DNA of 64,000 nucleotides, taken from contig JAGPYM010000023.1 of assembly GCA_020736575.1 (NCBI GenBank), positions 124,001 to 188,000 on the forward strand. The letters run 5' to 3'. Shown piece by piece: positions 5,454 to 60,747 of this stretch; the first letter of the stretch is position 1; each line of letters starts with the position of its first letter. Both the position numbers and the translations under genes were made by a program. Source of the stretch: Thelonectria olida. Lineage: Eukaryota; Ascomycota; Sordariomycetes; Hypocreales; Nectriaceae. Under the pieces are notes generated by a model that searched no databases, was not told where the DNA came from, and worked only from the letters and a program-made list of their open reading frames with translations.

Positions 5454-5502
5454 ATTTGGTGGTTGAGAAATGTGTAATTGAATAAAAAGAAGAGAGATTG
5501 AG

Positions 5503-6038: not shown

Positions 6039-6128
6039 CCATGATCCAAAACTGTCCATGATCCAAAACTGTCCATGATCCAAAACTGTCCATGATCCAA
6101 AACTGTCCATGATCCAAAACTGTCCATG
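6039..6128. repeat. 17-bp tandem repeat, five copies
   Basis: Unit ATGATCCAAAACTGTCC, with copies starting at 6041, 6058, 6075, 6092 and 6109, nearly identical. Degenerate copies continue at 6212-6262. Exact head-to-tail units without spacers, so a minisatellite, not a CRISPR. Confidence 0.92.
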
Positions 6129-6263
6129 CGTCACATTCAGGCTGTAAGCCATTATTAGCAAACGCATTGGTGGAGTGCGCATTCATTTTGCCTCAGCTGG
6201 TAATGCCACGCCATGATACAAAACTATCCATGATCCAAAATGTCCATGATCGGGCATGATACA

Positions 6264-6273
6264 GTATATAAGG
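6264..6273 (+). promoter_or_regulatory. Possible TATA box upstream of the 6786 gene
   Basis: TATATAAGGG lies about 520 bp before the proposed ATG, right after the degenerate repeat copies. Plausible only if the 5' UTR is long; no transcription start is known. Confidence 0.3.
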
Positions 6274-6785
6274 GACGTCTCGAAAGATGCTAGTACTGTG
6301 CGATAGCTAACGATGGCCCGCCCAATTCAGCATTTCCTGGTCTTGGCAATATCATAACAATCCTTGTTGGGTTTACCCCACGCAGAAACGTTTTCCGGAT
6401 TTCCCTTCCTAACAATTGCCTTTATCACCAACACCGAGCCCTTACTCACCGTCAGTCTTGGTCTTGAATACGAACAAGCACCCCCCCCCCCCTTTTTACA
6501 ACCTCTTTAAAGCCAGATATTACAACTTCAATCAGACTCAACGCTCCCTCATCTGTTTCAAGTTTTGATGTTCGATGCTTTCTCGGCAAATTACAGCCTT
6601 GTCATGACCTCAACGCCTACCGTTTCTGCTGACTGCCAACACCCAACGTCGGTCCCAAAAACTCGGTGAATACTAGCTTTTAGGCATCAGATTTGTATAC
6701 AAACGAAAGAAGAAGCGTTCCTCGTTTAGTCTTGAGCGGATTCATGCCTTAAAGATATCCCGATATTGGAGCTATCGACCCGACA

Positions 6786-7982: not shown

Positions 7983-8717
7983 CTTGTGCCCTTGGTTGTT
8001 TACTCAACCCTCTTCGTAACCCCACTACACCATACTGAACGTCGATCCAAGCCACCCGCCATGGGCTTCTTTCAAAATTGTTCCAGGATATCGGACCGGG
8101 CAACCTGGAAAGAGAAGAACAATCGGGTTTTCTTACTTCGTTGCAATGTCGCGTTATCCGGCAAATAAAGCGATCATCTCAACAAGGTCCTAGAAACTTC
8201 TGAGTAGCTTTATCAATGCATGAAGGGTCGCAAGGACTGAAGGGAATTTATTCCATTTTTCGGCCTTACCTAGTAATCTTCTATTGCGTCCATGACCTCT
8301 ATGACCAAATCATTATCTCAGCAGCCTACGAGACAATTTCGGGACCGATTTTACAGGAGATTCCCCGAACCTATGAAATTGCATATGCCAAATCTCGTTC
8401 CTTCCAGGAGAAACCAGGTAGTAGCCGATGGAGGGCGGAAGATGAGAGTCGATCCTTTCACTCTGCCTCGAGCTCGCATCATTCCCTCGCTACTCACGTC
8501 TGAGGTGCGTTGCGACTCCGCTGACATTAGCGTCTCGTAAAATATGGATGCTATCTCGTATACCCTGGAGGCAGGAAGAGTCCAGAACAACATTAGGCGC
8601 ACTAGCGCCCGATCGAGACCTGCAATGGGATCGGGTATCTTTCCAGTCGTAGTGTACAGCTATCATGCCCTTAAAGGCTCTTAGGGAGAAGTAAACCTTC
8701 ATATTCCAAGCATTGTA
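7983..8717. other. Intergenic stretch, no gene seen
   Basis: Contains only short overlapping ORFs without recognisable domains. It ends at the TA (8716-8717) duplicated by the pogo insertion. Confidence 0.6.
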
Positions 8718-8762
8718 ACGTGATCCACTGGAACTCCGCCCCCCCCCCCAAGTCCGCCCACC
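8718..8762 (+). repeat. Left TIR of the complete pogo element
   Basis: Matches the reverse complement of 10531-10575; includes a C-run and repeated CCGCCC motifs. Confidence 0.88.
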
Positions 8763-8869
8763 ATTAGAAGGTCAAATCTAGAACGTACGGTCGGCAACAC
8801 TCATTCATTTCTCAACCAACATAACTGTCAATAATAAAATAATTACATGAATTGATAAAGAATGCCTGC

Positions 8870-11962: not shown

Positions 11963-14802
11963 CAGACCTGCGTATATCGATATCCACCGAAATTCTGGCC
12001 CTTATATCGATATCCAGATAAGTGGGAGAAATTATCTGGATATCGATATCCAGGTAGATATCCATACAGCCACATAGCCACTTTAGCAAGGTTGATATCC
12101 AGATAAACCACATATAATTCTTGCAGGCTAGAGGAAAGAACAAGAAAGTGCCCTAATCTAGAAAGTCCTCTGCCTCTGTTTCAACGCTAAATTCAACAGC
12201 AACGCTCGAAATAACGCCCCTGCCGCCGTGAGACCTGGGCACAATGATACCCTCGCGCATCCAGTTGCCCACACACTCAACCTTCGCCAGGTTCTCGCAG
12301 GTCATGCTCTCTCTATCCCATGATAGCGTACGCCGCGCCGATGAGAAGTGAGACTCAACATCAGATGATTCAGGAGGGATTGAGAGGATATCAATTGCCA
12401 TGCGGGATAACCGCGGATATGCTTTCCTTTGATCTCGATGTAGCCACCACTCGAGAGGAGAGCCAGCTATCCGGGTCGGTGGTGCATCAATAAAGGTTTC
12501 GAAGTCATCGGCGTCGTCTAAGATAGGGCCAGTAACAGCAATATCGCTCAACAACTCATCCAGCTCGTTGCGCTGCCTCCCAGATGAAGAGGACACATCT
12601 AGAGGCACCCGCAAGGATTCTGGGATTGGCGCGGCATTATATTCATCTAGCCAAATTTGCTGGGCAGCAGCAATAGCAGGCGCGTGCCAGGATTCTTGCC
12701 AATTCCGCTCAATGTATTTTCTTCGTTTCGAGGGATCGAGAAGGAGTGCGGCGGCATACACAGGTGTCTGGTCTGGTAAGGTGTAGTACTTATTAAGGAC
12801 AAACCAGCCCATATCGATACAGTGTACCATGTGGGGATCATGGTTTTCCTTTGAACTATAAAGCTCCTAAATAAGACAATTAGTTAACTAGTTAACCGAT
12901 CAATTAGATAAAAGAAAAAAACATCGCCACCGACCTTATACTTCTCGTACTGTCGCAATAAAACATCCATTATCGAGAGTGATTGGGAGAGTGTAGATCG
13001 CGCCCCTTCGGCCAACAACGTAGCTGAGGCAAACGGCTGTAGGAAACGATGCGTCCGTTCAATAAACTCCCACTCTGAAGCTAGCAGGATATCGTCTTGA
13101 AGCTCTCTATCATGGTCAATTAGGAACTGTTTTACACGGGATTGATACCGCAGAAAATTGTCCAACAATCGATACCATGAATTCCAGCGTGTGGCATTAT
13201 CTATGCCTAGTCGGAGCTTTATTTCATCGTCCCATATAGCCGAATGAAGCGTAGTTTTACGTATCCAGACCGCGATGTTGTGTACTTTCCGTAGGGGCGC
13301 GATATGCTGCCATCCAGTGAAGTTCTCAAGTATACGATTGCCTCTTCGCGAAGCTCTTCTTCTCTGATGGGCCTCATCTGTTCTTGTTGTCTGTCCGGCG
13401 TCGTGCAAGGTGTCGTAGAACTGTGCAAACAACTGATCGTTTGAGGTATCATCGGCGGCATTAAGAGCGGCGATTAGTGCCTCTTTTGAAGACGCGAGAA
13501 GAAATGCTTGAAGGGATAGGTTAATAATGTGGGCGACGCAGCGGATACGGCGCTTAGAGGGATCAAATGTCAACTAGCAACCAATTAATCCTAATCCCGA
13601 GATAAGGGAAGAGCTATCGTACCCCATAGTCTTCTCGTAACCGCCGTGAGAGATAAGACAAGCAGGTATCATTTGAAGTGGCATTATCCCCTACATGGTA
13701 GCCCACTTTAGAAGCAATACCGTACTTTGCCAGTGTATCGATAATTAGAGATGCCTGGGTTTCACCACTATGGCTATGGCGACATTCTGGCATCGCTAGA
13801 AGTGCCCTTCGTGGCTGATAATCCTGATCAACCCATCTCGCAGAGATGGCGAGTATCCCATGGCGATGGGGCGATGTCCAGAGATCAGAGAGGATATGGA
13901 TCTTTGAGATGGAAGCTTCAAGAGTTGCCATGAGCTGAGAAGAATATAACTCATATGTGGCATCAATTAGTCGCATTAGAGCGCTTCGGTTGGTCACTAA
14001 AAGGTCCTCTATAGCAGGATTAGCTGCTAGCATCATCTCTTGCATCTCATCCCAGGTAATTGCTGAGAAGGCAAGCCGGCGGCGTGTGATTAGGCTGATT
14101 ATTGCATCTAAATACCGATCGCGGTCGAACATACGGCGGAGAGAGACATCCGAGTAACGAGAGGGGAAGAAAGCATCAATCCGAGGACGTTTGACTTCCC
14201 TTTCATCATCTAGAACATCAGAACTGCCCCCAATGAGCGTGCGATCGAGGGAAGAGATAATATCGGCGTGGCACCGCCGGGCATGATGCCATGCGTTGTC
14301 CCGCTTCCGATTCGCCCAGGGCTTATCGGCAGGGCAATGGAGACATCGATACATCACCATGCCCCTAGATTTGCGCGTACGTGACCCGCCGGTGGTGTTC
14401 TGCGTGTCCTCATCAGGATACGTTGCTTTGAAGAAGAGGAAAAAGTCCAGAGACGTCCCAGTAATGGGCTGGTCCGAAATCGAGGGCGTAGAGGCGGCGG
14501 TGGTCTGAGATGATGTCATGGTCGATAAATCACCTGGATAAGTTAATTGTGCTAGAATACCTAGGGCCGTTTGAACGAGTACTGAGATGGTGGTGCTGAT
14601 GTTGAAATTGAGAGAAGTCTTTTCATCATCTAAACAGTTGATAAGATCTTTTCAGCCAATCAGAGAGCGGTATTTAGGTGGATATCAATCTGGATATCCA
14701 TTTAAGAGGCAGAGAGTTATATCGATATCGATATATATCAATATCGATATATCCAGATAGCACAGTTGATATCGATATATCATATCCAAATACGCAGGTC
14801 TG
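11963..14802 (-). mobile_element. hAT-type DNA transposon (about 2.84 kb) with intact transposase
   Basis: Ends are short inverted repeats: CAGACCTGCGTAT at 11963 and its complement ATACGCAGGTCTG ending at 14802. Both ends carry clustered subterminal GATATC/GATATCCAGATA repeats (about 11972-12065 and 14680-14790). The flanks differ: dynamin on the left, copia gag on the right, and the 8-bp neighbours do not match, so no target-site duplication is seen. This suggests a rearrangement after insertion. Confidence 0.82.
12153..14519 (-). CDS. hAT transposase, intact, 749 aa
   Basis: Three exons on the minus strand, 14519-13623, 13573-12935 and 12866-12153, with 49- and 68-bp introns, both removed in phase 0. 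The N-terminus has a BED-type zinc finger (YRCLHCPADK ... HHARRCH, about residues 55-85). Next comes the RNase-H-like core: LSDLWTSPHRHG and YHVGDNATSND (about 215-290), then RIRCVAHIINLSLQAF. The C-terminus has the hAT dimerisation region, PRLSRMAIDILSIPP followed by HFSSARRTLSWDRESM. No frameshift or in-frame stop was found once spliced. Related, decayed copies sit at 36.9-39.2 kb and, more distantly, 34.2-36.4 kb. Confidence 0.9.
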
Positions 14803-34188: not shown

Positions 34189-36470
34189 TCAAATCGCATC
34201 ATCTGTGCTCTCCATGCTACTCCCTACCTCCCGGTGTAACCCATTTCTCCCAGGTACAATACCACCCAGCTTGACAGCACCATGCCTAATCCAGTTCTTG
34301 AGGCACTGCAGCCTCTCCAGTGTTTCCGCACTCATCGAAAGTCTCTGCGACGTTAACGTCAACTTAGCAAGGCTGAACGACCTCTCACAATCCGTTGCCA
34401 TCGCCAGAATAGTAAGTATGTCAAGAGCCAGCTGACTGAGCATCGGGAATGGCCCCCGGTGAGTCATCCACCACTCAATCGGATCCTCAGTTTCTTGTGG
34501 TTCCAGTCGCAGATAGCGCTCAAGCTCGCTACCCATTACCGTTGCTCGCGCCGTCCTGCTCTTCACCCACTGCTTGAACACACTGTCCTCGCGTGTCCTC
34601 TGGGTCGGCTTTTGCTGTTCATCCGTTGCGTCGGCCCGCCTGCAGAGATACCAGCGATCAAGATAGTCCGATAGTCCAATCTTAGCGTCTCTTACCCACA
34701 CAAGCTGCTCTTCCGTAGCCCAGTTCGCCTCGAGATAGCTCATGCCAAGAGCCGGGTGCAGAATGATGGATGCGGCAAACAACGGGGACTCTCCTAGCTT
34801 GGTGTAGTACTCATTGAGCTTCTGCCAGGCAGTCGGGATGGAGAGCCTCAGATACTGTCGATGATCCCTTCCGATGTCCTCAACACCTGATGACCCAGAC
34901 GGCTTGCCCCGCCCGCTGCCTTCTTCCGCATGACTTGGAAGCCGTGTCCCCTGCAGCTTTCGCGGCGGCATGTCCATCTCACAGTCTTTGAATCGCGCAG
35001 GGAGCTGGCGATTTCGATCTGGCCGCCCACGAGGCTGCTTCACCTGCGAGCTAGCACTCTCTTTCACCGTCTCGTCTGGGTCAGCATGATAAAACAGTTT
35101 CCAATCTTCCAAATGCTCCAACAAATATTCCATGCCCGTCATCACCTCCCATAGGCGTCCATGACCTCCCTCACTGCCCCACCCCTGCGCTCTCATGGTC
35201 TGCAGATAGAACGGCTCAAGAATATGCTTCACTTCCGCCAAAAGCCTCCAGTCATCACCCTTCAGGACATCGCCCTCGGGCAGCCATCTCTCCACATCTG
35301 GATGTACCAGGAAGGCCCTGATGTCTCCCTGCTTGACAAGCGCTCGAGATATCATGAGGTAGGTAGAGTTCCATCTCGTGTCATTGTCTATGATAACCTC
35401 TAGCTCCGCTGTCGACTCCCCTGCCAGCACAAAACCTTGTGCTTCGTCGTTCTCACGTGCGACTTTTTTGAAGAGTTCGCATCTTTGAGGGGATGATCTG
35501 ATGAACTTGACAACGTTATGGAGCTTTCCCATTGGTCCTTTCCTTCTCCAGTGCCATAGGTCCTCTTTGTGATGGCCGAGAAGATTGAAAACCTGCGATT
35601 CAGCCTCGAAAGCCTCGAAATCTTCGCCGTAGAGAAATGCACGAGCCACTAGGTGCAAGATGTGTCCATAACAGCGCATGCGTCTTGCCCGAATATCCGC
35701 TGGTGTCATGTCTAGGTCGAGACGTCGGTAGAAGTTGTGGAGGCAGTTGTCATTTGAGGATACATTGTCCGAGATCACTGTCCCAACTCGATCCTCTATC
35801 CCCCATTCCTGCACGACTTGCGAAATCGTTACAGCGAGGTTTTCCCCACTATGGCACCCGAGCTGGCGTCGAAGTGCCACTAGGCGTGACTGGTGCTGGC
35901 CCTGGCGGTCGAGAAAGTGAGCCGTTACTGCCATCATAGCATACCGATTGGGTGAGGTCCATAGGTCAAATCCGAGATGAATCTTGGCGATGGCATCTGA
36001 AAGCTCCTGCTTGACCTCATCCTTCTTAGACTCAAACATGTCATCTAGCAGACGGCTCATCGATTGCCGGCTCCATGGTACCTGGCCTGACAGATGAGGA
36101 TCAAGTTGCCAGGTGAGTTGTTCAAGGAATGGATCGGAAAATAAAGAAAAGGAATATTGGTGTTAATAAGAAGCCCTAGGCTTACTTCTCGGATCATCCT
36201 GACCTTGGCTCGTGGCACGGCGCGGTATTGCAAGCGTGGTCGCTTGGGAGGAACAGAGTCGTCGGTCGAGGCAGATAGATCTGTGTCGGCGCCAGGACTG
36301 CCCTCAAAGATCCTGTGACACCTGCACTCTGTCAGCGACGCCCAAGCTCGTGGTACACTTATCACCGTACTTGCGGAGGTGGTCAGCGGCTGAGCTGGCA
36401 CTTCGCGTCGCACTGACGACATGCCAAGTAAGGGTTTAACGGGCTGTCATTAGCGTCTATCCATACCTGG
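34189..36470 (-). pseudogene. hAT-family transposase with damaged N-terminus
   Basis: A long open frame (36060-34189) encodes most of the protein. It has AKIHLGFDLWTSPNRYAMM, RVGTVISDNVSSNDNCLHNF and RCYGHILHLVARAF of the catalytic core, DNDTRWNSTYLM, an AT-hook-like PRGRPDRNRQ, and the dimerisation region LSQLALDILTILAMATDCER followed by FSLAKLTLTSQRLSM. In-frame residues upstream of 36060 (LTWQLDPHLSGQVPWSRQS) belong to it. Further upstream the BED zinc finger (CRQCDAKC, then DHLRKYGDKC) is split between two frames near 36385. Without a working zinc finger it is probably inactive. It belongs to a different hAT subgroup from the 12.2-14.5 kb gene. Confidence 0.82.
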
Positions 36471-39402: not shown

Positions 39403-42067
39403 ATGGATCAGACGACATTTGTTGATGATGCCCTGCCGCCGGAGGGCATATATGAATCACGCGAATCTCTGCTCACAGCCATCAATTCTTGGGCGAAACC
39501 TCGAGGTTATGCATTCACGACGGGAAAATCCACGAAGACCCCAAACGGTCGAATCAAAGTCGTGTTTGCATGCGATCGGAATAAGCCGCCACCGAGTACA
39601 TCTATCGAACGAAAACGCCGCACTTGTAGCCGGAGAACTGGATGCAAGTTCTCAGTACTGGCCAAACAGTCACTGGATGGAAGTACATGGGTCCTAAGCC
39701 ATCGACCAGACAAGGAGTGTGCCCAGCACAATCACCCACCGAGTGAAGATGCATCTGCACACCCGGCGCATCGCCAGCTTAACGAGAGAGATGCTGCCAT
39801 TATTTCAAATCTGACGACCGCTGGTACTGCTCCTCGAGATATCAGAACCTACCTCTATAACAATTCCGATAGCCTCGCGACTCAGCAAGACGTCTATAAC
39901 CGAATTGCGGCAACCAGGAGAGATCTACGTGAAGGGCAAAGCAGTATCCAAGCGCTGGTTGACCAATTATACGAAGAGGGCTTCTGGTGTCGAGTTCGAC
40001 TGGATTCAGACCATCGGCTCACAGCCATCTTTTTCGCCCATCCGGACTCTTTTACCTACCTCCAATGCAACCCAGACGTCTTGTTGTTAGACTGCACCTA
40101 CAAGACGAACAAGCACGCCATGCCGCTCCTTGACATGGTTGGAGTTGATTCTTGTCAGCGTTCGTTCTGCATCGCATTTGCCTTCCTATCAGGGGAATCG
40201 GAAGAAGACTATTCGTGGGCACTTCATCATCTCAAATCACTCTATCAGCATGAGCTTCCTTCTGTGGTCTTGACTGACCGATGTCTCGCTGCGATAAATG
40301 CGGCTGCAACCTGGTTCCCTTCCTCCAAGGCACTGCTTTGCCTCTGGCATGTCAACAAGGCAGTCCTGCAGTACTGTAAACCTGACTTTGTAGTGAAGAG
40401 TAGCCAATCGAGCGGTCAAGCAGAGGAAGCATGGAACAAATTCTACGGATTTTGGCACTCAATTGTGGATTCGCCAACCGAAGTGATGTTCAAAGAGCGG
40501 TTGGCCAAGTTTGAGCTCAAGTACGCCAAAAGCCACCCCCGGGCGGTTGGGTATATTAAGTTATACTGGCTCGAGCCGCACAAAGAGAGAATTGTTAAAG
40601 CATGGGTGGATAAGCACTTGCATTTTGGCAATGTGGCCACTTCGAGGTACTCAGCCAGTTACATCAATATTGAAAGCTAATTAACGTTTGCCTCCTAGGG
40701 CCGAAGGAATCCACTCGTTGATCAAATCGTATATCAAGACATCCACATTCGACCTCTTCGACTCTTGGCAGGCCATGCGCCACGCGGTCACCAACCAACT
40801 AAAAGAGTTGAATCACATACGGGCCTCTCAACAGACCCGGACGCCTCTAGATGTCTCGGGAGAGATGTTTGATGCCGTGCAGGGTTGGGTGTCACACCAG
40901 GCCCTGCGCAAAGTGCAAGAGCAGCGGAAGTTACTTCTGGCGCCTCTCAAAGCTCCTTGCAGTCAGTCTTTCACTTCCTCGCATGGACTGCCATGTTCTC
41001 ACACGTTGAAGAAACTTGAGGAGGAAAAGCAGAGTCTTTTGCTTGAGCATTTTCATCCTCATTGGGCTTTGAAACGGAATGTGGACTGGCCGTGGCCCAT
41101 ACTGGAACCGCGTAGAGTCCCAAGGCAAGGTATCCAGACAACTAGCCAGCCCACAACGAGCACCAGACGAGAACCCTCTGGATTTGAAATCGTCCAGTCT
41201 GGCAAGAAAGAGCCCCGTACGTGCAGTAGATGTCACGCTGTCGGTCACATAAAGTCCTCGAGAGCATGTCCTCTGAGGCTCCAGGAGTTGCTCACACAGA
41301 CAGCACCGGCTTCGAAGTCAGCCCCGCAGCCGGACGCAACACCAGTCGCCATTCCAGCTCTTACTGATCCTGCTGAAAGTGTTTCGGTGACCCGTGGGCC
41401 ATCATTGGCCGGACCTACAATAGAACGCCCTGCGGAAGCTGTTCGACGCTCTCGCTCTCCCGCTGCTGTACCAACCCCATTTGTCCCGCCTTTGCCTACT
41501 ATACAAGATTCCCCTATAGGCCCCCACTCTCCTATCGTTTCAGACGGTCGGGCGGGAACTGTGCCAAGCTCCGTCGGTGGAGAGTCTGTGGTGCAACAAC
41601 CATGCCATTTGCGCGAGCCCCTCCTGCATTCACCACCGAGGTACGACTCGCCACAAGCTATATATGGAAGGTATGTTGCCGCGAGAAGCGCGTGGTACGC
41701 AGCGCAGCCCACCGGCAGCATCAAGACCAACCAGCAATATCGTAGGGCGATGGGGCTGCCACAAAGGTACGACAAGCAGAGCTATGAGTGGTGTCTGGAC
41801 TACAAGCAGATGTCCAAGCGCTACATGACTTCAACAGGATCAAGAGAATGGACGAAAGAAGAGATGATGGCGTATTTGGATTGGAGTAAGGCGGAGGATG
41901 AACGCATTGAGGCCCAAGTCGTTCATGAGATGGGAGACAATCCGCTGGCAAACAAGAGAAGAGGTGTGAAAGACATCTGGAAGAGCGTTGAAAGAGATAG
42001 CAAGAAGCAGCAAGCCTTGCATTCGACTACTGGCTCGGTAGATCAGTGTATTGTCGTCAAACCGTAG
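39403..42067 (+). CDS. MULE transposase, intact, 870 aa
   Basis: Two exons, 39403-40646 and 40699-42067; the 52-bp intron is removed between ACT-TCG-AG and G-GCC. The N-terminus has a FAR1/WRKY-like zinc region (CDRNKPPPSTS, TGCKFSVLAK, HNHPPSED). The MULE core has VLLLDCTYKTNKHAMPLLDM (first Asp), SVVLTDRCLAAINA (second Asp) and ALLCLWHVNKAVL, with EEAWNKFYGFWHSIV for the acidic third position. A SWIM-like element, SHGLPCSHTL, and a CCHC knuckle, CSRCHAVGHIKSSRAC, follow, then a Pro-rich tail and a second helical region. No stop or frameshift is seen. It should catalyse movement of the TIR-bounded element. Confidence 0.9.
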
Positions 42068-42588: not shown

Positions 42589-44007
42589 ATGGTCGCTAAT
42601 CAGAGAGTAGTTACTTGGATTAACAACCTGCCCGACACTTTCGCGTGGTCCCAGCCTCAAACGCGCGCAAAACCAACGACAACACCACCATCACAAGCCA
42701 GTAAACGCAAGGCAGCACAAGAGCCAAGTCCACCAGCCACGGTATCAGATATGGAGGATCCCGAGACTCCTACCAGAAAGAGGCAACGGCTCGATCGAAC
42801 CGCAGATCCGGAATTGACGCCCCGACCTCAGCATGAAACCTCGAATGACGCGATGAAGTCTCCGTCCCTTTCGAGCTCCAACACCTCCGGTCGCTCTCGC
42901 TCGACATCGCCGTTAAAGAGACAATTCCTGGAACTACGCCTTGATGAGACAGGCATGGAGACGAAAGCACTTAGTGTCGGCGCCCTCGAGGCCCTGCCGA
43001 ATCCAGACGGTGCTTCTCTGTTGAGGATCATGCGCCGCATTGGTACCTGCAAGGGTATTCTTCCTGATGACCGGCGCGAGGAGATCTTGCGGAGTCACAA
43101 GATAAAGGGGAGCGATCTTGAAGACTGGGATTCGGCTTTCAAGGGTTCCAGTGCGTTTGCCGGCCTCCCAGGTCGCATCCCGTCACCCGGAGAGGTCGAT
43201 CTGGTGCGTGAGTGGACCACGGACTGCATTGAACTCAAGCATGAAGAGGCTGGCTGGAATGACGAGGTTCACTTTCGTCTGCTAGAGGCCATTTTCAGGG
43301 AGCCTGGGAAGAAGAAAGGAGGGCTCTTCAACATCACTACCAGGTAAGCCGCTCATTCACTTGTTGATTCCGATCCTGTGCTGACTTGAATCGACAGACA
43401 CACGGCTCGTCCGCACAAGGCTTGGCTGCCAAAGTCGATTGGTTCTAAAATGGTCGATTTCTGCATCTACGCTGACACAGTTCACCAAGACGCCGTGTCG
43501 CTCGAAACTCACGAGGCCTTCTGTCGAACCACCCTGACCAAATCCGTCAACCACACAGACTTCCAGCGACTGCAGATCTGTCCAATAGTTTTGAGCATCG
43601 AGACTAAGGCAGGGAATCAGAACCTAGACGCAGCTGAGCTACAAATCGGGGTCTGGCACGCTGCCCAGTGGGCATTTCTTCGCGCATCGCTCCTTTCGGC
43701 GAAGCGCGCGTCGGCGGGCAGACTTCCCACGGCGCAGGAAGCGGAGCAGGCCGATGAAGCTTTGTCTCGCTTGCCCTTCATCCCTGCGGTGATTGTCCAA
43801 GGCCACAGATGGCTCTTCGTTCTCTCGACGCGCCAAGGCCACAAGACGATACTTTGGAAGGAATGGCAGTTTGGCAGCACGTCCACGGTGGTGGAGACCT
43901 ACCAGACTGTGGCTGGGCTCAGGCAGCTCACTGCGTGGGCTGAGAAGGTCTACTTGCCATGGTTTCAGGAGGAAATCCTGGCGGCATATAAGCCTGGCAC
44001 GGTATGA
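42589..44007 (+). CDS. PD-(D/E)XK nuclease-fold-like protein, 454 aa
   Basis: Two exons, 42589-43343 and 43398-44007, with a 54-bp intron (phase 2) joining ITTR to HTARPHK. Residues 1-125 are disordered and basic, with a KRKAAQ/RKRQR-like nuclear signal. Residues 130-250 are helical (LRIMRRIGTCKGILPDDRR). The C-terminal half has the motif spacing of the fungal PD-(D/E)XK-like family: KMVDFCIYADT (Asp), VLSIETKAGNQNLDAAELQI (the ExK pair) and WHAAQWAFLR, then VIVQGHRWLFVLSTR. The family is abundant in fungal accessory regions; its role is not established. The gene is intact among pseudogenes. Substrate cannot be inferred. Confidence 0.82.
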
Positions 44008-47961: not shown

Positions 47962-48279
47962 CTCCAGCAACTCTGCATTAACTTTCGAGGAACACTTTTC
48001 TAAAACCTTGGCTCCAAAGCTTTTACTTCTTGGGTAAGAGCTTCTGAAATATGATACCAAAGTTCGTGGGAACTTAGTAGCAAGCTGTCACACTGGCTGA
48101 GGTTCTCTTGGGCGGAGCATCTGTAACAAATAGGTAGTAAGAATATAAGAATAGATATCGCTTCTTGATGAAACGAAAAGGTTATCAGTTGTGTTAAAAG
48201 GTCTAAGTTGCCTACGTTTGAGAGGAGCACAGCTCCTTACATAGTACCCACATCCCAGCCACCAGCAGATCGGACCATC

Positions 48280-48828
48280 TTAGTCATACGGTCTCAACAC
48301 TCCCACTCGAGCTGCTGTTGGACTTGATGTGCACGCCTGTTGAGTCTCGTTACATCTTCGTCTTTGGCGCGGGCATTGCTCTCCCGAAACGTCTTGGAAG
48401 GCGCCGTGAGAGAACTTAGAAGGCGAGAGTGACGACCTCGGCACAGCCATTGCTGCCATGACCTCCTCCAACTCTTGCTCTTGTGAGGAGTATATAGGGT
48501 GAACTCCATGATCGGTCAAATGCTGTTCGAAACCGCGGTTATAGGGGGTCGTCGACTTCTTGGTCGTGGTCGTTCCTGAGGTTGTTGGGAGAGTTGTTGG
48601 GAGAGTTGTTGGATCGGTGGACTTGGTCGCTCGGCTTCGCGAAGAGGAGTTCATGGCGCCGGCGTGTTGGTGGCTGCTTTTCGCGGGAGGATACGCTCGA
48701 AGATCACGCAAATCTGGACCACCGCGTTTCGCAAATCGAGCAAGCTCTCTAGTGGCGGCGGGCGTAAGGTTTGGGCAAGCTCGTCGGAGGCGAAGGACAG
48801 GAAGGTTGAGTACAGGGACGCCTTTCAA
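48280..48828 (-). pseudogene. DUF7924-like protein, N-terminal remnant
   Basis: Contains FAKRGGPDLRDLRAYPPA, a Ser/Thr-rich linker, YNRGFEQHLTDHGVHP and AVPRSSLSPSKFSHGAFQ. This order of motifs is typical of the N-terminus of fungal DUF7924 proteins, common in accessory DNA. The larger C-terminal domain is missing and the tail is frameshifted. Family assignment is from pattern memory. Function unknown. Confidence 0.6.
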
Positions 48829-49086: not shown

Positions 49087-52000
49087 CTATACGGATAAAT
49101 TGGCCTCAAATGCTGCAACAACTTTAGCACCAAGATCCCACTTTCCACCCAAATATTTTCCGAGTCCGGTTGCTCTTGCCACCTGGCCTCGTACAGAGTG
49201 ATTCCTTCCACATCCTGCTTCGAGATCAATCGCTCAAATTTGAATTCACCCCGAGCCTGGTGGTGTCTCGCTTCATAGTTGGCTATGGCCCCCGTACCGA
49301 TATCCTTTTTCTTCACCCAGCTGTTGTCGCTCTCGGGGTAGCCCTTCCACTTGACTTTGTACCACGCTCCCCTTCCGATTCGCCCCTTGGCGACTAAACG
49401 CTCAACTTCGAATTCGGTGCCTTCTTGGTCGAGAGGAAGGGGCTTATCGTGATGCTCTTGCTGAGGGACTCCGCTGACGAGTTGTTCATTGTTACTTGTA
49501 TGAGCGGCTGTGGTTCCGGCCTCAGCACCTTCACTAACTTGATCAGCTAGTTTTTCTTGGGATGACACATCAGTATCTATAGAATTCGTGGTGCTAGCCG
49601 CACTCCTTTCTTCTGTAATGTCTGACACAGTAGACAAAGAGTCATGGAGAGCCCCTATAGAAGTGGTAAGAATCAGCTAGTATATCAATCTCAAAGAGGC
49701 CATCCTACCTTGATTCTCACAGAGGGTGTCTGCTGTTGCCTCTAATGGACCGTTGGCAGCTGTGCAGCCCACGAGCGTATCACTCGACCACGTTTCCGGT
49801 AGGGACATGGTCGGATCGATTACTTCCTCTGACAGGACGGACGATAGTGGGGTGCTGTAACCGGACGACGCGGCATCTTCAAAGTCGGTAGTGCCTGAGC
49901 TGCTGCGGGAAGGCACAAGCTCTTGAGAATGACCCGGAAACCTAGGAGATAGCTGCCTCTTTACACCGTCTAGATAGGTGTTGTGGAAGGTATGTTGGGT
50001 TTGAACGACAGCCATGCTGTCGTTTTCTTTAGAGTTTTTGCGACACTGTTGTGCTTTCTTCCTCTTCGAGGGTGGGATATCGTCGCTGTCGTATCTCGGT
50101 CTTTTTATCTTAGTATCGTTACTGCGCTCGACACCAAAAGCATCTTGAAGATGGAATTGCAGATCCAACACCGACTCGAACTTTCTTGGACAGTGGGGAT
50201 GCGTGTGTGGGCAGGTTACGGGCATAGGTGCATTTTCGAGCTCTCGAATATGGGTTTGGATGTGATCGAGCCATGTCCATCGTTTCTTAAATTGGTACAT
50301 CCGTACCGAAGCTAGCATTCGATCGTCTCCGAGGCAGAAAGGGCAGTATCCGGCCCTCGCAAGAACCCCTCCATATGTGAGAGGATCGCACCAGATCGGA
50401 AGGCTCTCTGGGTTATCTAAGTGGTGTTGGCAGTGTGCTCCCAGTTCCGATACCGCAGAACCATTCGTTGCAGAGGAAGCATAGCTCGGCAAAGCCATCG
50501 ACCTTCCCAGCGGTTGTTCTGTGGCATTCGTATACATGTCGCCAGTCATAAGAAGAGCCGTTGTTGTCCTGTCCGCAGTGGCACTTGTCCAGCTCTAACC
50601 CCAGCCGATACTCCACGCTGCAACGCTTCTGATAAAGAGCTAGCATGTCATGGAGCACAGCAAGGCCCGCAGGGCTTCGTAGCTTGTCGACCAGGAAGAG
50701 GTTTTGCGCCAGACGGTCTCTTTCTGGCATCAGGAATCGGACACGATCGAATATCGCCCTGTGGTATCCTGGCGGATCATCGTGCTTGACTGGCTGATTC
50801 TTTTGCCACTTTCGCAATGCTCGGCAACGAGTTTCCGTTTCTCCGCATAAAGCTTCTTACGCTCTAAGGGTTTTTTATCGGCAGTATCCCGTAGTGCGAG
50901 GAGCTCTCGATTGATGCGCGTAATTTCAGAACTGGTATCACAGTCATATTGCTGTTTGGCTGGCAGGCACTGCCAAAGACTTGGGTTTCGGGGTATCGTT
51001 AGCCCACGAAAGAGATCAAGGACTCGAGTACGCCTCTCCTGGCCGTGGTAGGCTGCCTGGCCATCTGCGCCATTTCGAGGCAAGTAATGCGCTGGAACTG
51101 TATTTGGGTCAGTGTGTCCAGCATAGACCATCCGTGTAGCTTCTGATTCAAACTGATCTATTGAGCGGGCCAGGTTAGCGGCGGAGAACTTGGGGGAAGC
51201 AATATGTACGTACTCATCAGGTAAAGACCCTCTGCCCGAATATCATGATGCCTCGGCGGTGTCGGGTATCCTGCCCGTAGACCCAACGATCGTAATCGGT
51301 GACTGAAGGCACCAGCAGTTTCGATATCCTCACTTGAATGACTTCGAAAGAATGGCGTCTCAAGAAGATGGTCCTTCCATTGTATAACCCACATCTCATC
51401 TTCTGGTGGCACAATTGTGAGGAGGTCATCAATGGTTTTGTAGTCCCTGAAAGCTCCGTACGCCAGAAGTCTGGCTAGGAAAGGAAGCATAGGGTTGAAG
51501 CAGAGCAATCCAGGCCCAATTCCTTCGTATAAGGCGTGTTGAGGCCTGTGATATTGAAGATCAGAATAAGAATCCAAGAGCTAAGTGATAGATCTTACCT
51601 TTCGTCAGGCGTGCTTGTCATGTTTTTGGCATCTCGGGTCAGTTGAATGGCGAACTCAGGTGCCCCTACCTCATTAATGAATGCCACGAATGTGAGATCC
51701 TTGAACGCGGGTTAGCGTGTGCTTAGGCTGTCGAATAGAACGCAATGTCGTTACCTTAAAGTAGAGGCCTCGGCCGGTGTCCGCGCGACAGCTAGACTCG
51801 ATATACTCCCCAATTCGGGAAGAAGAATAGGCATTTCCAAGTAAGAGGCCCCAATCATCGACAGGCGTTGCTGGGCGTTTGTGGTCGACCCAATCGGCCG
51901 CCCAGAGCTGTCTTGCGTAGTTTAACATGACATTTTTTCCAGCAAACCTACGCCGCCTTTTGTGTTTTGGCATGCGCATTTCTTCTGCAAGAGGTCCCTT

Positions 52001-52417
52001 AATGAACTAATAACGAAATTAACATTTTGACATTTACTGACACGTCAATATTAAGAATACTTGCCTCCGTCACAGACTGTGCTATGCCACGCGGTATCGA
52101 CTCCTTGGGGTTGGCTCGCTGCCAGGCTGCCGTGAATGTGTTCCAGTATTTCCGCACAGTTTCCCACCCAGGAACATCAAGTTCACGGTTTTCAGCATCT
52201 TGACCATCAATGCTGTAGGCCACCTTCCTCATAAAGTCTTTCAGAGACTCCAAGTCATGTGCCGAAGCTGTGATTTGAACCCTCTGGTATCTATTAACAT
52301 GAGTCAGTTAAACATTAAGACGTAAGAGTAATATGAATACACTAACCCGAGCCAAAAGTCCATCATCTTCTTATAATTCCGTTCTACCGCGGGCTGAAGC
52401 GGCCTATGACTCGCCAT
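49087..52417 (-). pseudogene. Tyrosine recombinase of the DUF3435 (Starship captain) family with zinc-finger-like and chromodomain C-terminus, decayed
   Basis: Seven exons on the minus strand: 52417-52347, 52290-52065, 52006-51755, 51699-51599, 51545-51214, 51157-49709 and 49654-49087. The second intron is GC-AG. Spliced, the core reads MDFWLGYQRVQITASAHDLE, TVRKYWNTFTAAWQRANPK, SSRIGEYIESSCRAD (catalytic Arg), QLTRDAKNM, HHDIRAEGLYLM (H-x-x-R) and AGHTDPNTVPAHYLP (His and nucleophile Tyr). Then come Cys/His-rich modules (CHCGQDNN, CFLCNEWF, CDPLTYGGVLARAGYCPFC, CPHTHPHCPRKF) and a nuclear-type basic linker. After an intron, two chromodomain-like units follow, VERLVAKGRIGRGAWYKVKW and FERLISKQDVEGITLYEARW. 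Three single-base frameshifts (about 50820, 50440-50465, 49150-49165) inactivate it; the original end was near 49087. Confidence 0.85.
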
Positions 52418-53144
52418 TCACAATATCGCTCTCTTTCACCGCGCTCCTTTCGCAGCCCAGGCGCAGAGAGTCAGTAGCACTCTTAGCTTTTCCCATTAGA
52501 TAGAGTTAAGTTGGTGATAAGGTAAGGGAAAAAAGTAATGGGGGGGTAGAATGGTCTTGGCACCTTTGGTTTAAAGATTTGGGTGTAAATACCACGGCGA
52601 GTTCTGAGGACAAATGAATGGGGTGAAGTCGAGTCTAAATACCAGCCAGAGGTCTGGGCGCGAATAGGAGGAAGGTATTCCACAGGTGTACGTAGATTGC
52701 GATGCGGTCAGTTACTAGGAACGAGAAGCCTTGCACCGGAGCCCATTGCTTCCAGACACGAAAGGATTCAATCATAGCCAAGTTCCGGGACTTTTGCCAA
52801 AGGATCAAAAATTGGGATCCCAGTCCCAAAAGGGGACCCAAGGCCGACTCCTTAGTTGCCATGACGCTTGTGAGAGTCGGACGGGGTGGCCGACAAGACT
52901 CAGAGGTTGAGGGCCCAGAAATGGGAACAAGAGCGGCCACTAAGCTGCTGCTCTGTACCTGAGGTGCAGGCTCAGGTACAGCAATCTGGCATCGTAATTT
53001 TGTCTAAAAATGGACCAAGCAGAGTACATCCGCATGGCGTTTAAACCCCTCTGAACGACATTTGGCAGCCACCAAATTGCTTAGTATTATGGCCAAAGGC
53101 AGTCTACTATAAATAGCACTAGAGGTCAATTTCTTGCCCCCCCC

Positions 53145-53722: not shown

Positions 53723-56700
53723 CTAGTATTGTGCAGATGGATATGACAATAACGATAATCGGGCCTCATTTACTGTCCTCTCGCACAACTGTTCCAGCCT
53801 AGCCTCGCCATCAAACATTTCCTGTGGGATTTTATTCCCGACTATGTCCTGTACCCGTGCCTTTGACAGCAACATAATGCCATCAAGCGATTTGCACCGC
53901 GATAGCTGCACATACAGGCTGTACGGATCGCACTTTCCTGGCTCGAGTTGTCCAGTTGTGGTATTCAGCTTTGTTCCGGTTCCTCGCAGCTCCAGCGCAA
54001 TCTCGAGGAGGGTTTCGCCTTGAATTTTGTAATCGGTGCATGCGAACGCTGCAGTGCAGGGAAGTCCTCGGCGGCTCACTTCGTGCCTCTGCCAAGGCCT
54101 CTTCTTGGCCCTCTTCTTCTTCTCGATGGGTATTTGGGCACTTGTTGGAGTAAGCAGGACCGTGCCTGGTGGCATGTCATCAAACTTGAACTTCTTGGTT
54201 GACTCGGATAACAGGATAATGCCGGCAGGTGGTCCAAAGTGGAGGATAATGTTCGGGGCGAGTTGATACCCTGGGAAACTCTTGGCGTCTGGTATAACTT
54301 CTAGTGCTTTGTACTTGGCCCCGTTCACGAGCTTGAGGCCTGGATTTATATTCTTGGTCACTACCACCGGCATGCCAGGCACGAACATGAACGTGGCCGG
54401 CACGCAGATCTTGCTGTCATCTCCGACGCTGGCTATGAGCGTAGCTTCTTCCTCCGTTACCGGTAATGTACTGGGTTTACCCCAACGGTGCTGGGGTAGA
54501 AATATCCGGACTGGCTTCTGGTGGTGCCTCTGGAAGGCTAAGACCGCATCCATGTTCAGGCACCATCTGGTGCTGTTGAGGGGTGTAACTACTGTGATGC
54601 CCTTGCCCCATGGTGTGGCTCGACCTTCCTGGAAGCACCGGCTATTAAGAAGCTCCATGTCGGACTCGTCTTGCTGCCCCTGCCGGATCCGAGTCAGCAG
54701 CCGCTGCAGCTCCGGGTCCCCCGCTGCGCGCACCTGTTCGGTGAGCATAACGACGGTGGTAAATCGAGTCCAGAGTGCGTGCGCCCTCATTTCGTCCGCA
54801 ATCCTGAGGGCGGACCATGGCGTCAATAGCGACTTGTTTTGCACTGGGCGGAATTGGTGGAAATCTCCTGATAGTAGCACCACTGGGATGCCGCCAAAAT
54901 CTTGATTCGATCCTCGGGAGGCGCAAAGTCGCTTGTTGATGTTGGAGAGCGTCTGCAGGCCCAGCATGCTCACCTCGTCAATGATGAGCAGCCACTTTTC
55001 TCTCCATCTTCTTCGGGCATCACCGTCCACGTAGGTTACCGTGCTGCCATCGTCGGCATTGCTGTCGGATGCGTTGGGTTGCATCCCACAGGCGGAGTGA
55101 ATGGTCACGCCGTTGATCCGCGCTGCTGCGGCCCCCGATGTCGCCGTCATGAGCAGCCTGTGCGATATGTCTTTGCTAGCGAACAATTCCGCCAACGCCT
55201 CGATGACCCTGGACTTCCCAGTGCCGCCCTCCCCACCCAGGAACTCGCATAGTTGTGCGTTATCATTGTTCTCGACATTACTGCTATCGAAATCATCGCT
55301 GTCATCTTCGTCCGGGATGGTGTCGAGATGGCGACACACTAAAAGGAAGGCAATTTCCTGCCGCTCGTTCAGGGTGAACCTGCTTGCGATCTGCCGACCG
55401 GCGTGGAGGAATGTGGTTGACGGTCCAAAAGCGACCCTACTGCTGGGTTCATAAGTGTTCCCGGTGTCTGTTTCCGATATCTCTATGCTATCTTCTCCTG
55501 CACCCGCAAAAGTATGGTTCAATAATGCTTCTCTGCCGGCAGCCGTGTTCTGAGTATCCTGAGCTCCGTCAGAGCCTTGGATTCTTTGCACAATTTCCTT
55601 GTCGGCTTTGCCCTGCTTGCTCTTAATCCCCTTGAGTTGATGTTGCATTGGGAGCTCGCTCCTGGCTACCATAGTTGGCTGGTACTGCTCAGGCCTCTCT
55701 GCGGGAGCGACAGTCTCAAGATCATCTGCAAAATCGGTGATATCTGCGTGGGTTTCACGGAGCTGGTCTAGCAGCTTAACGAGAGACTCCGAACCAGCGG
55801 TCACCTGGTTGGGGGCTGTGGCACCCCGTACTGTCTCCATCAGTCGGCCAAGCTCGCCAACCTGATCTGAGCGATACGTTTTTACTGGGCCCATAGAATC
55901 TTCGATATCATACCCCATAGCATCGATATCATCTAAAACGGCATCGTCCCCCGCAGCTGCCCACTGCTTCGCGTCTCGCCGCGCATCTTCCGCTGATCGC
56001 TTCAAGAGCTGGATATTGCTTGCGATAGTCTGGAGCCTTTTTGGGAGTCGCCGTCTCCAGTGTTCCCAGATTTCATTAATATCGCCTGATGCTGCTCTAG
56101 TGAACTTCTCCCATGGCACAAAGAGTGCGAGGTGCTGTACTGCAGCTCTGGTGCTAATATTAGTGTATGCTCCTCGTGTATCCATCCCGTCTGTTCTATG
56201 GATTTGTGCTTACCTGCGGTATCTGTCTGCGTTTGTGTCAATATCAAAGTCCATATCGAGAAAGCCATTGATGCATGGCACTGCATACTTCCCCGGGGGT
56301 CTTAGAACCTGCACCCAGTCCCTTCCCGGCTTCCAGTTCTTCTCAAATTCTATCTTCACCAACTCCTTGGAAGATGAATCTATCCTCTTTTGCAATTTAA
56401 CAAGCGACACGTAGTCATAGAAGCATAATGTCTGCAGCACCTCTCCACGGTGGTGGTAGGCTTCAATGTATGGTAGCTTCTTGCCATTGCTTCCCACCAA
56501 GACCCTCTCCACGCTGGCTTCCGCGTCGTTGCCGTTGCCATTGCCACCTATGTTCTCGATAGGTCGATCATCGTCGTCGCCTAAAGTGCTACTGCATTGC
56601 TGGAGATACTGCCAGCGTCGGAGTATTGCCCAGTATATCGTTGTCATATTCACATATGACCATTGTTTAGTACTGGAGAACTCACTTGGGTAATCCAGGA

Positions 56701-59700
56701 AGTGCGCAATCACCTCCACCTGCGATAATGGCCGCTCAGTGAATATTCTGTTTGCGATTCTCATCAGATACTGGCGGTTTATATTTGCCTTGGCTTCGTA
56801 GTTTGCAGTTGTTGCACCTAGCCCGACGGCGCTGGTTGTGCTGATACTCGGAAAGAGCTCTGCTGCTATGGCCACTCTCTTCCAGATCGGATCTTGGATC
56901 TTTGTGGCGTAGTTTGTCAAGTAGTATATCAGCGCCATTGTCTTGCTTTGGGTTCCGATGAAGGAGATGTCGTGATTGTGCCGCAGCCCAACCGCCATTG
57001 GCTTGTTCCATCGGTTGATCATGGGATGTGAGCGTTGGAGCCGAAGTATGCCATCCGCGCCAAATTCGCTTTTTGTAAAGAGCTTCCAAGGCGCATGGAA
57101 TCGACACGTGGGCTTCTTTTCTCCCTCCTTGACATGAGAGTATTTGACACAAGTTGCAGTGTGGACATGCATCTGAACCCTGCCCGCGCAAAAGTGGGCT
57201 TCATCGTCAAACTGTTCAGAGAAGCGCCCCGTATCGATCATCAAGTGGGATATGTTGTCGTAAACTACCCTAGCCTCGCTCTCCTCACTAAAGGCGGCGG
57301 ATTCGTCTAGATCCTAGATAATAGTTTAGCTTCCGACCTACGTTGGCCTTTGGTTATATGGATATATGGATCACATACCTCGGTAAAGACAGAATCGACA
57401 TATTTCAGGATTCCTTCCCGTTCCATCGCCGCACTCTCATCATCCTCCCCGTTTCCATGAGCACCGATGAAGTTTCCGAGCTCCAAGTTCCCTTCGAGCC
57501 ATAGCAAACCATGGACATGAAGAGCACCGCGTTCGTTGGTCTCGACAGCAGCAAAATACTGTCCAATCTGACCAAACACAGATTCCTCCCCAACCTTGAC
57601 GTAATGCTCAAAGAACATCTCTACTTCGCGGTGGAAGAAGATGGCAGAGCTTATGGGGTCAGTTATCGCCAGCTTCACTCTCTCATACCTATCCTGAAGG
57701 GCCCGAAGCAGGGTTGCTTCCGCGGCAGCGTTGTCCTCCTTTCGATATGCCGCCAGACGTAGTTTTACCGGGTTCGTAATGTCATTAGGGTTCAGCGTAA
57801 ACCAAATTGCCGGTATACCGTATCTGATGATGAGCGCTTTAATCTTTCTGCGCATGGCTAGCCGCGACTCCTGCGACATGGCCTGTTTGTAGCCAAAGTA
57901 TGAGATGTATCGCAGGAGCTTTTTGATATCTTCATCTAGGGTGCTCCCGCCAGCCTCTAACTCCTTTTGCACTTCCGCCAACCTCTCTGGTGTTAACGAC
58001 TGAACGATCCTCTCAACCTCAGGAAAATCGTTCCGTCGCACGCTCACCATACTTACTCCTCTATTCCTAGACCGAACCTCTATGTTGAATACTAGGAATG
58101 AAAACGCCGGATGATTGGCAAAGCGACCACCATGTCGATGCAGCACTTTCTTCGTCCATGCGCGAAGTCCGAGATTACGTGTTGGCGAAATCGCATCCTT
58201 TTCACCCTCTCCAATACTGTCTCTATCACGGATATGCCCTGTGAGCTGGAGACTGTTCTTCCACAGGTCCGATTCCATTTCTTCCTTACACCGTGGCCCA
58301 CCGAAACCGAACGGGAATAGTGTTGGAAATGCTTTTGCAAGATGCCAGAGATCATTCATATCTGAAAACTCGTTGCCTCTTGAAATGTGAATGTATGGCT
58401 GAAGGTGCGAATCCTGCGCGCTCCCAGTCGGCTGGTTGGGCGGCTGTGCTTGCGCATTTGTGTGTCCACCTCTGATTGTATCAATAGCAAATTGCAGTTT
58501 ATCGGCATCGGTTGCTCGCGGTGTTGTATCCAGTGGAAACATACCAGATGCAAGTATCTCATCAAGGAAGCTTCCCATGCCCTCATACTCGAGCTCCTCC
58601 CTACTGCGCTCGTCGTAGAGCCGCTGATCCTCGTCGTAACTTACATCATTCTCATCGTACGCTCTGCCCAGCCCGTCCACAATCTGTTCGAGTGACTGGG
58701 GCCCAGTGTCATCCATTCCACGTTCTGCTGGGGGCACAATGTGCGCCGTTCGCGTTTCTTCCCATGCCGATGGTTCATCTCTCTCTATCCTGTCATAGAT
58801 CCGGCTCGGAACCCCGTGCGCCGGCTCTCCCCAACTATCCAACTCGGCTTTGTCGATTTCGATATGCCGATAGTGGGGGTTAAATTCTTTTAGCCAAAGC
58901 AACGCCCGTTCCACAGCTCCTCGCCGGACTGAGAGCAACTTGGATAGATCGCTGGGGGCTGGTCTCTGCGGCCCATGCCAGGATATATGGATGTCCTCCA
59001 AAGATTGTAGAAGCGGATGTGGTAGTACTGTGGTAACCAAGTCTTGAACACTGTTTGGAAACACAGTTATATGACCCTTTACATGGCGTGCATATGCCGT
59101 ACTCTGTTTGGTGCTTTTTGTCACTTTGATTCTTGCAACGATGCCGAAGTGGGTGTTGAGTGCAATCAGCTTCTCCTCAACCAATGTCAAGTCTCTGAGA
59201 GCATCCGGGTACATGTGCTCGCAACCAAGTGCTTGATGCAAGTTCCCGCCCCGCGCCATATTGTCTTCGCGGATCTTCATTGCACAGTTTTCGCAGCTCG
59301 GTATAGCCTTGCCAACAGGGAAGCAATCTGGACATGAATACGTGCGGCAGCTATTCATCGCTTCGCTACTTGTCCACTCTTCCCAGCTAAGCTTTTTCAT
59401 CTCCATGGTGCTGATCTTCTGATAGCATATCATGCAGGTGTGTATGGGTAGAGTGTCCATGTTGTGAAATGCTTGATAAAAGTCCATGACTGTGGATATA
59501 TTCCTCTCACGGGGGACCGACTTACACCAATCCTTGGTGTAGGATAGTCTCTGCTTCTCTGTAAATTCATCTTCCAGATGCTTAATAGCTCGGTATAATG
59601 CCTGGCTTTGCTGCGCAAGGTTGCTATTCTCAACCCGTCTTCGATTTTGCCTTTTGTTTTGTTCTTGTCCGTGTTGATCAGCCTTGCGTTTTGCGCCAAG

Positions 59701-60747
59701 TTCTTGCTGGCCATCTTGAAACCTCAGTCTTGCCATACATCCACGTCGATCCAGTTCATCCTCTGGGTGAGATCTGCCTGTACTGGTGGTCTCTACTGCC
59801 TCTGTAGGCGTTGGCAATGTTTCTGAGTGTGATTCTTGTTGATTGTTTTGTCCTTGTTTGTGTTGATTAGCTCCACGCGTTGGATTGCCATGTTGATCCA
59901 CATCTGAAAAGCTTAGAATGCTCATACATTGCTGCATGCCCAGTGCATTGTGCGGGTGATACTGGCTCGCGTTGGTTATCTCTGCAGCCTGTGTGAGGTT
60001 TGGTGCTATGAGCTGTTGCGCTGGTACAGTACGTCGTGGAGCATTAGATGGCAACTGGGAACTGGTTGGAGGGGTCCCGACAGCAACCAGTGGTCTTTGC
60101 TGTTGTGTTTGTCTCCTTTGCCGCCAGTTTCTTTCCCGGGCATCTTTCCGTCTTGATGCACGAGAAGTTCGCAGTTTGCCTCTTGATCTTGGAAGCGCTT
60201 GTATTGGTGGCGTACTCCTTGGCTGATGTTCCAGCCCCCGATTTCCTTCTCGAACATCTCTCCGCCTTGGTACACGAGAACCTCGCGGTCTGCCTCTTCT
60301 TCTTAGAGGCGCTTGCATCGGCGTCGTGCTCCCTGGTGGTGGTCGACTCATCCAGTTTCCTGCCGCCTGTGTTTGCACATTGGCATTGTCGATTTGATTT
60401 GCACTTGATTGGTATTGTTGGTGATTACCTGGTTTGCTTGGTTGGCCAGTTGATTGCGATCCCTGGAGTGCCGGGTCTATAGGTACGGTTTCTGGAATAT
60501 CACCAAGTGTACTCAGTTGGACAGTAGGGTGTGACCTCCTTAATGCCGGGCCCACAGGCTGGACATCCGGAACACGATCGGGTGTGCTTGGTTGGACAGT
60601 AGAATGTGATTCTCTTGGTGTTGCGTTTGTATTCGAGTTTCCCGCACCAAAGATATCATTGTACGTCTTCAGCCCGACACTGCTGAGTGTGCTGCCAGGC
60701 GTTCGACCACGCAACCTTTCAAGTAGAGCAGATAATGACGAATCCAT
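53723..60747 (-). CDS. Helitron RepHel protein, intact, 2,299 aa
   Basis: Rolling-circle transposase-helicase. Exons 60747-57379, 57313-56214 and 56153-53723, joined in frame (65- and 60-bp introns). The long N-terminus is Gln/Pro-rich and disordered with basic clusters. A Cys-rich region follows (CMICYQKI, CPDCF, CENCAMKI, DUF6570-like, about residue 430-490). The Helitron_like_N/Rep domain has FFHREVEMFFEHYVK, ERGALHVHGLLWLEG (HUH-type metal site) and MALIYYLTNYATKI (paired catalytic Tyr). The third exon carries a Pif1-like helicase: GGEGGTGKSRVIEA (Walker A), LLIIDEVSMLG (Walker B), GDFHQFRPV, MLTEQVRAAG and YVQLSRCKSLDGI. No stop or frameshift is found. Confidence 0.93.

Follow-up and report, generated by a model that had tools for sequence, protein, structure and literature searches.

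A decayed DUF3435 tyrosine recombinase gene with a chromodomain tail in Thelonectria olida and its putative Starship-captain relatives

The window, a stretch of 64,000 nucleotides from Thelonectria olida (C82:124001-188000; assembly of 52.5 Mb in 165 contigs), carries on its minus strand a series of open pieces that combine into one decayed DUF3435 tyrosine recombinase gene (Table 1). The gene encodes a recombinase that has the full set of active-site boxes; these are followed by Cys/His modules, then a linker and, at the C-terminus, two chromodomains. The nearest proteins are fungal, mostly from Fusarium. A tblastn search with the relative P0002 covered residues 1-1022 of that protein. The alignment placed the start of the gene at 52496, 79 bp further out than the 52417 given in an earlier note on this DNA, and revealed loss of frame at four places (about 52.4, 50.8, 50.4 and 49.1 kb) instead of the three frameshifts counted there. 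The intron that the note had proposed ahead of the chromodomain exon held up, as it joins in frame and annotated relatives run on across its site in the alignment. The window copy is a broken relic. Decay by RIP was considered and rejected, as the indices at the gene, 0.77 (TA/AT) and 1.23 (second index), do not show it. Comparison of the gene with a plasmid collection gave zero matches, as expected for a fungus.

Table 1 Features of the decayed gene and its upstream flank, in window positions
Feature	Position	Strand	Basis or remark
Decayed DUF3435-chromodomain recombinase gene, whole	49087..52496	-	Frame pieces, landmarks, P0002 tblastn; six introns, four frame breaks
Intron 1	52346-52291	-	Placed by landmarks
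Intron 2	52064-52007	-	GC donor
Active-site box I, SSSR (catalytic Arg)	51815..51826	-	Arg in 36/37 filled rows, 50 rows in total
Intron 3	51754-51700	-	AAG acceptor
Lysine box RDAKNM	51619..51636	-	Lys in 39/39 filled rows
Intron 4	51598-51546	-	Placed by landmarks
Active-site box HHDIR (His-x-x-Arg)	51236..51250	-	His in 39/40, Arg in 39/41 filled rows
Intron 5	51213-51158	-	Placed by landmarks
Active-site boxes AGHT and HYLP (nucleophile Tyr)	51078..51125	-	Tyr in 47/47 filled rows
Cys/His (C2H2-like) modules, frame break near 50.4 kb inside	50151..50583	-	Translation, positions counted by hand
Intron 6, precedes chromodomain exon	49708-49655	-	GT..AG ends, in-frame join
Chromodomain 1, aromatic cage F-W-Y	49260..49418	-	Pfam, translation
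Chromodomain 2, third cage position Gln, frame break near 49.1 kb	49104..49244	-	Second Pfam stretch; model strands 134-165
End of an unrelated small DNA transposon, upstream of the gene and not part of it	52955..53029	.	Same sequence at 6 other loci

The gene sits in a transposon-rich stretch that spans from a chitin synthase at the left edge of the window to a Helitron upstream of the gene (53723-60747, minus strand), which comprises Helitron_like_N and DUF6570 (57307-60747) and a PIF1-type helicase (53723-56185). Pieces of DDE_1/Tc5-type, hAT, MULE and PDDEXK_12 families were found at 4108-10444, 12153-12830, 34189-36060, 39403-40680 and 42589-44007, and a repeat of about 190 bp lies just downstream of the gene (48166-48352; about 30 genome matches among those listed). 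The window holds 41 ORFs of at least 150 aa, of which 21 neighbours were scanned and two more belong to the gene. No border of an element was found in the window; a candidate 5' border at 53029 was rejected, the repeat there being the end of a different small transposon. The 21 scanned ORFs contained no member of the NLR, patatin, DUF3723 or ferric reductase accessory families, and DUF3723, patatin and ferric reductase were absent from the matches listed for the whole contig C82.

On the minus strand we recovered all active-site blocks named in the earlier note together with a lysine box, RDAKNM, that it had left unnamed: SSSRIGEY starts at 51826, RDAKNM at 51636, HHDIR at 51250 and YAGHTDPNTVPAHYLP at 51125. 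The protein displays the R-K-HxxR-H-Y active site and Cre-like fold of tyrosine recombinases. In the alignment of relatives the third active-site His (AGHT box) is His in 28 of 48 filled rows and Gln in 18. The Cys/His ligand columns are nearly invariant in the filled rows (C551 47/48, H562 45/45, C566 45/45, C581 43/44, C584 41/44, H597 42/42, H601 40/42, C627 40/40, H654 41/41, C671 40/42, H691 41/42), the weaker ones being C549 (33/48) and H658 (28/41).

The piece 49637-48993 matched the Pfam Chromo profile PF00385 in two stretches (5.1e-14, 52.4 bits, cut-off 25.1), and an AlphaFold2 model of it predicted two beta-beta-beta-alpha units with a pLDDT of about 90, the end of unit 2 lying past a frame break and being taken in the shifted frame. 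The two chromodomain-like units claimed downstream of the Cys/His modules were thus borne out. Of the two profiles suggested for checking the protein, Chromo was clearly matched; for DUF3435 (PF11917) the best window piece stayed weak (20.2 bits, E 3.3e-4, cut-off 25.8), though 34 of 37 relatives match that profile at E 0.01 or better. The window gene is also absent from the genome-wide PF11917 search, among the matches listed. The gene pieces had no integrase core or reverse transcriptase among their Pfam matches, and one piece gave a Retrotrans_gag match below threshold (E 0.12). The three-residue aromatic cage of unit 1 is kept in 23 of 25 relatives by regular expression and in 24 by eye, and chromodomain 1 is far better conserved than the linker. 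Because the cage is conserved, guidance of integration by histone marks is plausible. The third cage position of unit 2 is non-aromatic in all 15 relatives that have this unit (13 by regular expression, P0040 and P0044 by eye); unit 2 is best described as a predicted chromo fold without a full cage, and not as a demonstrated chromo-shadow domain.

Three protein searches returned at least 52 distinct relatives: 37 with the window pieces joined by X (7994 candidates sharing most words scored), 16 with P0033 (7993 scored likewise) and ten of 87 candidates with the P0002 tail. Both PF11917 and PF00385 are present in 18 of the 52 according to a precomputed column. The closest, P0001-P0008 from Fusarium and Monosporascus (662-1032 aa), are 66-83% identical to the query in the best local alignment; query coverage reaches at least 81% in five of these eight, the remainder being shorter or missing exons in their gene models. 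The fusion of recombinase and chromodomain is shared by predicted proteins of Fusarium, Monosporascus, Pseudogymnoascus, Fonsecaea, Apiospora and others. More distant chromodomain-bearing members come from Phaeomoniella, Lachnellula, Pseudogymnoascus, Cudoniella, Fonsecaea, Hyaloscypha and Chlorociboria, and further ones from a member of the Xylariales, Apiospora, Thelonectria, Candelina and Cirrosporium. With the same fusion in relatives, the description of the gene as a captain-family recombinase with zinc-finger-like modules and chromodomains is supported, and, judged from these sequences, the fusion is genuine.

We retained 50 proteins and excluded P0051, an unrelated multi-chromodomain protein, and P0052, a patatin-chromodomain model. 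A chromo-like tail is present in 25 of the 50 (24 by precomputed Pfam; P0034 at 22.5 bits, below the cut-off). Seven have tails of more than 200 residues without a chromodomain (P0010, P0011, P0012, P0018, P0025, P0030 and P0032), and the remaining 18, with tails of less than 200 residues, are uninformative on its presence. All long chromodomain-less tails except that of P0012 end in a short basic RIKL/KKRIK-like motif (by eye), possibly an alternative tail module. The excluded P0052 (Fusarium langsethiae) is a patatin gene model ending in a chromodomain exon like that of the window gene, its tail agreeing with P0002 at 88% identity along 66% of the length; it may be a merged model, a rearrangement or a real new fusion. 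P0046 (Fusarium nematophilum) is a 1791-residue model in which a chromodomain-bearing captain is followed by a second DUF3435 stretch, either merged neighbouring recombinases or a real double protein.

A midpoint-rooted tree was computed from the recombinase-to-zinc part of 49 of the 50 rows, P0037 being dropped with fewer than 300 core residues; four rows are long-branched. The tail label requires a minimum of three changes among the 24 chromodomain and seven long-tail rows, two of them forced by starred branches, compared with 6.4 changes for shuffled labels; none of 500 shuffles was as low (18 rows uncounted). Gain and loss are not separable by the number of changes on an unrooted tree. The deepest split (13 versus 36 rows) has chromodomain rows on both sides, and therefore the chromodomain tail was probably ancestral and would have been replaced later in some lineages.

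Related copies occur in the same genome. An intact paralog of the same architecture, which the earlier note had suggested looking for, is nearly realised on C77: a P0033-type relative runs from an ATG at 522222 in a frame to 525630, with the zinc region and both chromo units inside one uninterrupted open frame. A copy 95% identical to it, with a deletion, lies at C83:347005-343551; its later zinc part shares a frame with the chromo units, and its first zinc module is outside that frame. The note had also named intact relatives that end before the chromodomain exon as a refutation; this does not apply, because relatives extend through that exon. In C77, unit 1 is imperfect, the single Pfam match (21.3 bits, below the cut-off) being best over unit 2. 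The full unit-1 cage is lost in both the C77 and C83 copies, which are the best-anchored captains, and in both the third catalytic His is replaced by Gln. Chromodomain-bearing fragments were found at C81:404k and C79:13k, with a small one at C83:131k; fragments on C108, C118, C101 and at C82:496k lack a chromodomain in the stretch examined.

The C77 and C83 loci are unrelated up to C77:521796, 426 bp 5' of the ATG, and about 95% identical from there on, until the homology stops inside the last exon. A genome search with this leader gave 15 matches at 13 places. The 12 copies compared have unrelated flanks and share a common start near AACCCGAATCTCGACGCAACC, preceded by TGTT in eight (by eye). 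A captain piece follows the terminus on C77, C83 and C124 (tblastn), and at C80 the DNA similarity reaches into the gene; for the other eight of the 12, none was detected over 1.5 kb. These eight, copies of the first 70-250 bp of the terminus, lie on C46 (two places), C86, C107, C88, C158, C97 and C2 (labelled L046-L050 and L052-L054) and are possibly non-autonomous elements or elements with other captains.

Outside the C77 terminus lie a sugar transporter, a Zn2Cys6 factor and an alpha-amylase-family gene. Inside it, the repeated 5' terminus is followed first by the captain and then, within about 34 kb, by Starship-type accessory genes and others: WD40 repeats with an NPHP3_N/NACHT-like piece (NACHT 25.7 bits, cut-off 26.7), a Ulp1-type protease, SIR2, a patatin piece (22.3 bits, cut-off 27.7), DUF3723 (252 bits), a DUF7492 protein and a BCS1-type AAA protein. 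No ferric reductase is among the matches listed for the C77 contig. A 3' border, direct repeats and an empty site of this island were not found in the single assembly, and a search of C77 525000-568000 for a terminal inverted repeat of the terminus gave nothing above 10 bases. Genome-wide, 17 DUF3723 matches merged into nine loci and 35 PF11917 matches into 19 (by eye). Four of the nine DUF3723 loci fall within 50 kb of a PF11917 locus or one of the three chromodomain-bearing captains (C77, C83 and window); together these zones take up no more than 4.2% of the genome. Two fall within 50 kb of the three captains themselves, with about 0.05 expected by position; one of these, on C83, is on the outer side of its captain, beside another DUF3435. 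The fragments on C81, C79 and C124 have no DUF3723 within 50 kb and were left out of the expectation figure. The C77 relative looks like a Starship captain, with its 3' border not found and its own cage imperfect. The captain status ascribed to the window gene is thereby upheld on the 5' side of its C77 relative, by terminus and accessory genes, and not at the window relic itself, which has no border or cargo that we could find. Ferric reductase and DUF3723 matches also lie close together on C131, C150, C83, C2 and C102, and a DUF3435 is no more than 80 kb away on each of them except C102; these contigs look like further Starship islands.

The wider question is how Starships, which carry large gene sets between fungi, choose insertion sites beyond short target motifs. 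We assign a probability of roughly 0.6 to the explanation that the window gene is the relic of a Starship-type captain whose chromodomains would steer or license its complex to methylated chromatin. The Cre-like recombinase would cut and rejoin DNA at the element end and a short target, the Cys/His modules would serve as additional DNA- or partner-binding parts, and chromodomain 1 would act as an HP1-like methyl-lysine reader. Together with the cage-less chromodomain 2, it would steer or license the complex to a particular histone methylation. We infer catalysis, binding to histones, the mark read and a directing effect of this reading on integration. In view of the captain and chromodomain pairs of the Sanctuary, Frontier and Janus Starships and of the fused form, which would be their Rosetta-stone counterpart, we rate chromatin-guided action as most likely and self-regulation as its main rival. 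Against chromatin guidance counts the description, in the part of PMC12289983 drawn on, of H3K27me3 in Verticillium Starship regions as no different from that in other adaptive regions. Further points weigh against the explanation as a whole: the lack of a found border and cargo at the window copy, the missing 3' side of the C77 island and its sub-threshold patatin and NACHT matches, the cage loss and the Gln replacement in the C77 and C83 captains, the outer position of the DUF3723 near C83, and the eight terminus copies in which 1.5 kb showed no captain.

Self-regulation, which we regard as unlikely, would mean that the chromodomains hold the recombinase at a silenced donor or tie it to silencing or repair proteins, and so regulate excision or self-silencing instead of targeting. 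The separate chromodomain genes conserved in some Starships, as excerpted, would fit a regulatory partner as well as targeting, and the incomplete cage of unit 2 would suit a protein-binding module; fusion to the enzyme, however, favours action at the DNA being recombined, as does the targeting role that Gao 2008 reportedly assigned to chromodomains on retrotransposon integrases. Lower still we place the view that these genes are solo DUF3435 transposons, consisting of the recombinase only, with the C77 accessory genes as coincidental neighbours. The end of the C77-C83 homology in the last exon and the majority of terminus copies in which no captain piece lies within 1.5 kb fit it, and solo DUF3435 genes are described in the excerpt of PMC12134995 as outnumbering captains and not separable from them by tree; the position of the C77 gene, first after a terminus that sets host-type genes apart from NLR, SIR2, patatin-like and DUF3723 genes, and the excess of DUF3723 near such captains speak against it. 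That the chromodomain exon stands apart, as a gene of its own or the remnant of a retrotransposon, with the fusion an artefact of gene prediction, is very improbable and was rejected: 62 chromodomain matches are listed genome-wide, many in frames above 1000 aa, and the window parts are linked by a predicted intron alone, but C77 has its single frame, C83 likewise from the later zinc part on, the architecture recurs on both sides of the tree and the frame of the window's last exon has no ATG ahead of the chromo unit.

Returning to chromatin-guided captains, the chromodomain-tailed family is widespread, and a histone-reading tail may help giant elements to choose a chromatin landing site. The window copy, itself broken and set among a Helitron and other transposons, is informative as a report of this family, which holds both cage-bearing and naturally cage-less members and makes the histone-reader role directly testable. 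To our knowledge, this would be the first tyrosine recombinase to carry a chromatin reader, in parallel to chromoviral integrases. We tentatively extend the idea further: in a large captain lineage, reading of methylated histones could have belonged to transposition from the ancestor on and be general to it, whether through a chromodomain tail on the captain or through a partner chromodomain gene, so that giant transposons would choose a chromatin state as well as a short target and lineages with the RIKL-type tail would have changed their insertion preference.

Among known systems, HP1, MPP8 and CDY resemble chromodomain 1 in fold and aromatic cage, and are without a recombinase. Chromoviral (Ty3/gypsy) integrases likewise carry a C-terminal chromodomain on a DNA-integrating enzyme; they are DDE integrases and not tyrosine recombinases, whereas the present gene has a Cre-like enzyme part and no DDE core. 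Cryptons are, like this family, tyrosine recombinase DNA transposons of fungi, and we know of no chromodomain in them. Their recombinases are very distantly related to DUF3435 according to the part of PMC12134995 drawn on. Starship captains (DUF3435/PF11917) share the recombinase family and active-site boxes, and the C77 gene resembles them further in being first after a 5' terminus and followed by NLR, patatin-like and DUF3723 genes; they differ in that here the chromodomains are on the enzyme and the window copy has no border or cargo found. In excerpts, PMC12153272 presents captains as both necessary and sufficient for transposition, and it and PMC12134995 give short motifs as the targets. 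The literature drawn on, in part, comprises PMC12506042, PMC11857905, PMC12289983, PMC11905480, PMC12134995, PMC8547959, PMC6338049 and PMC12153272; no captain fused to a chromodomain is reported in the open-access literature among the matches listed, a scope outside which lie the main Starship surveys (PMC11162782, PMC9156397) and the supplements. Sanctuary, Frontier and Janus each have a captain and a CHROMO gene in one element. According to these excerpts, size variants of Sanctuary share the captain end and a 3' end with one chromodomain gene, Frontier elements share the captain end and the chromodomain-gene end, which the authors suggest to be a minimal transposition unit, and in Janus CHROMO is listed in all five of five haplotypes, down to a mean of 19 kb. 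In the passages drawn on, the chromodomain protein of Sanctuary and Frontier is a separate gene at the opposite end from the captain, and the CHROMO of Janus, its form not being given there, could be the captain itself. Starships with a separate chromodomain gene are thus known; what appears to be new is a captain to which the chromodomains are fused.
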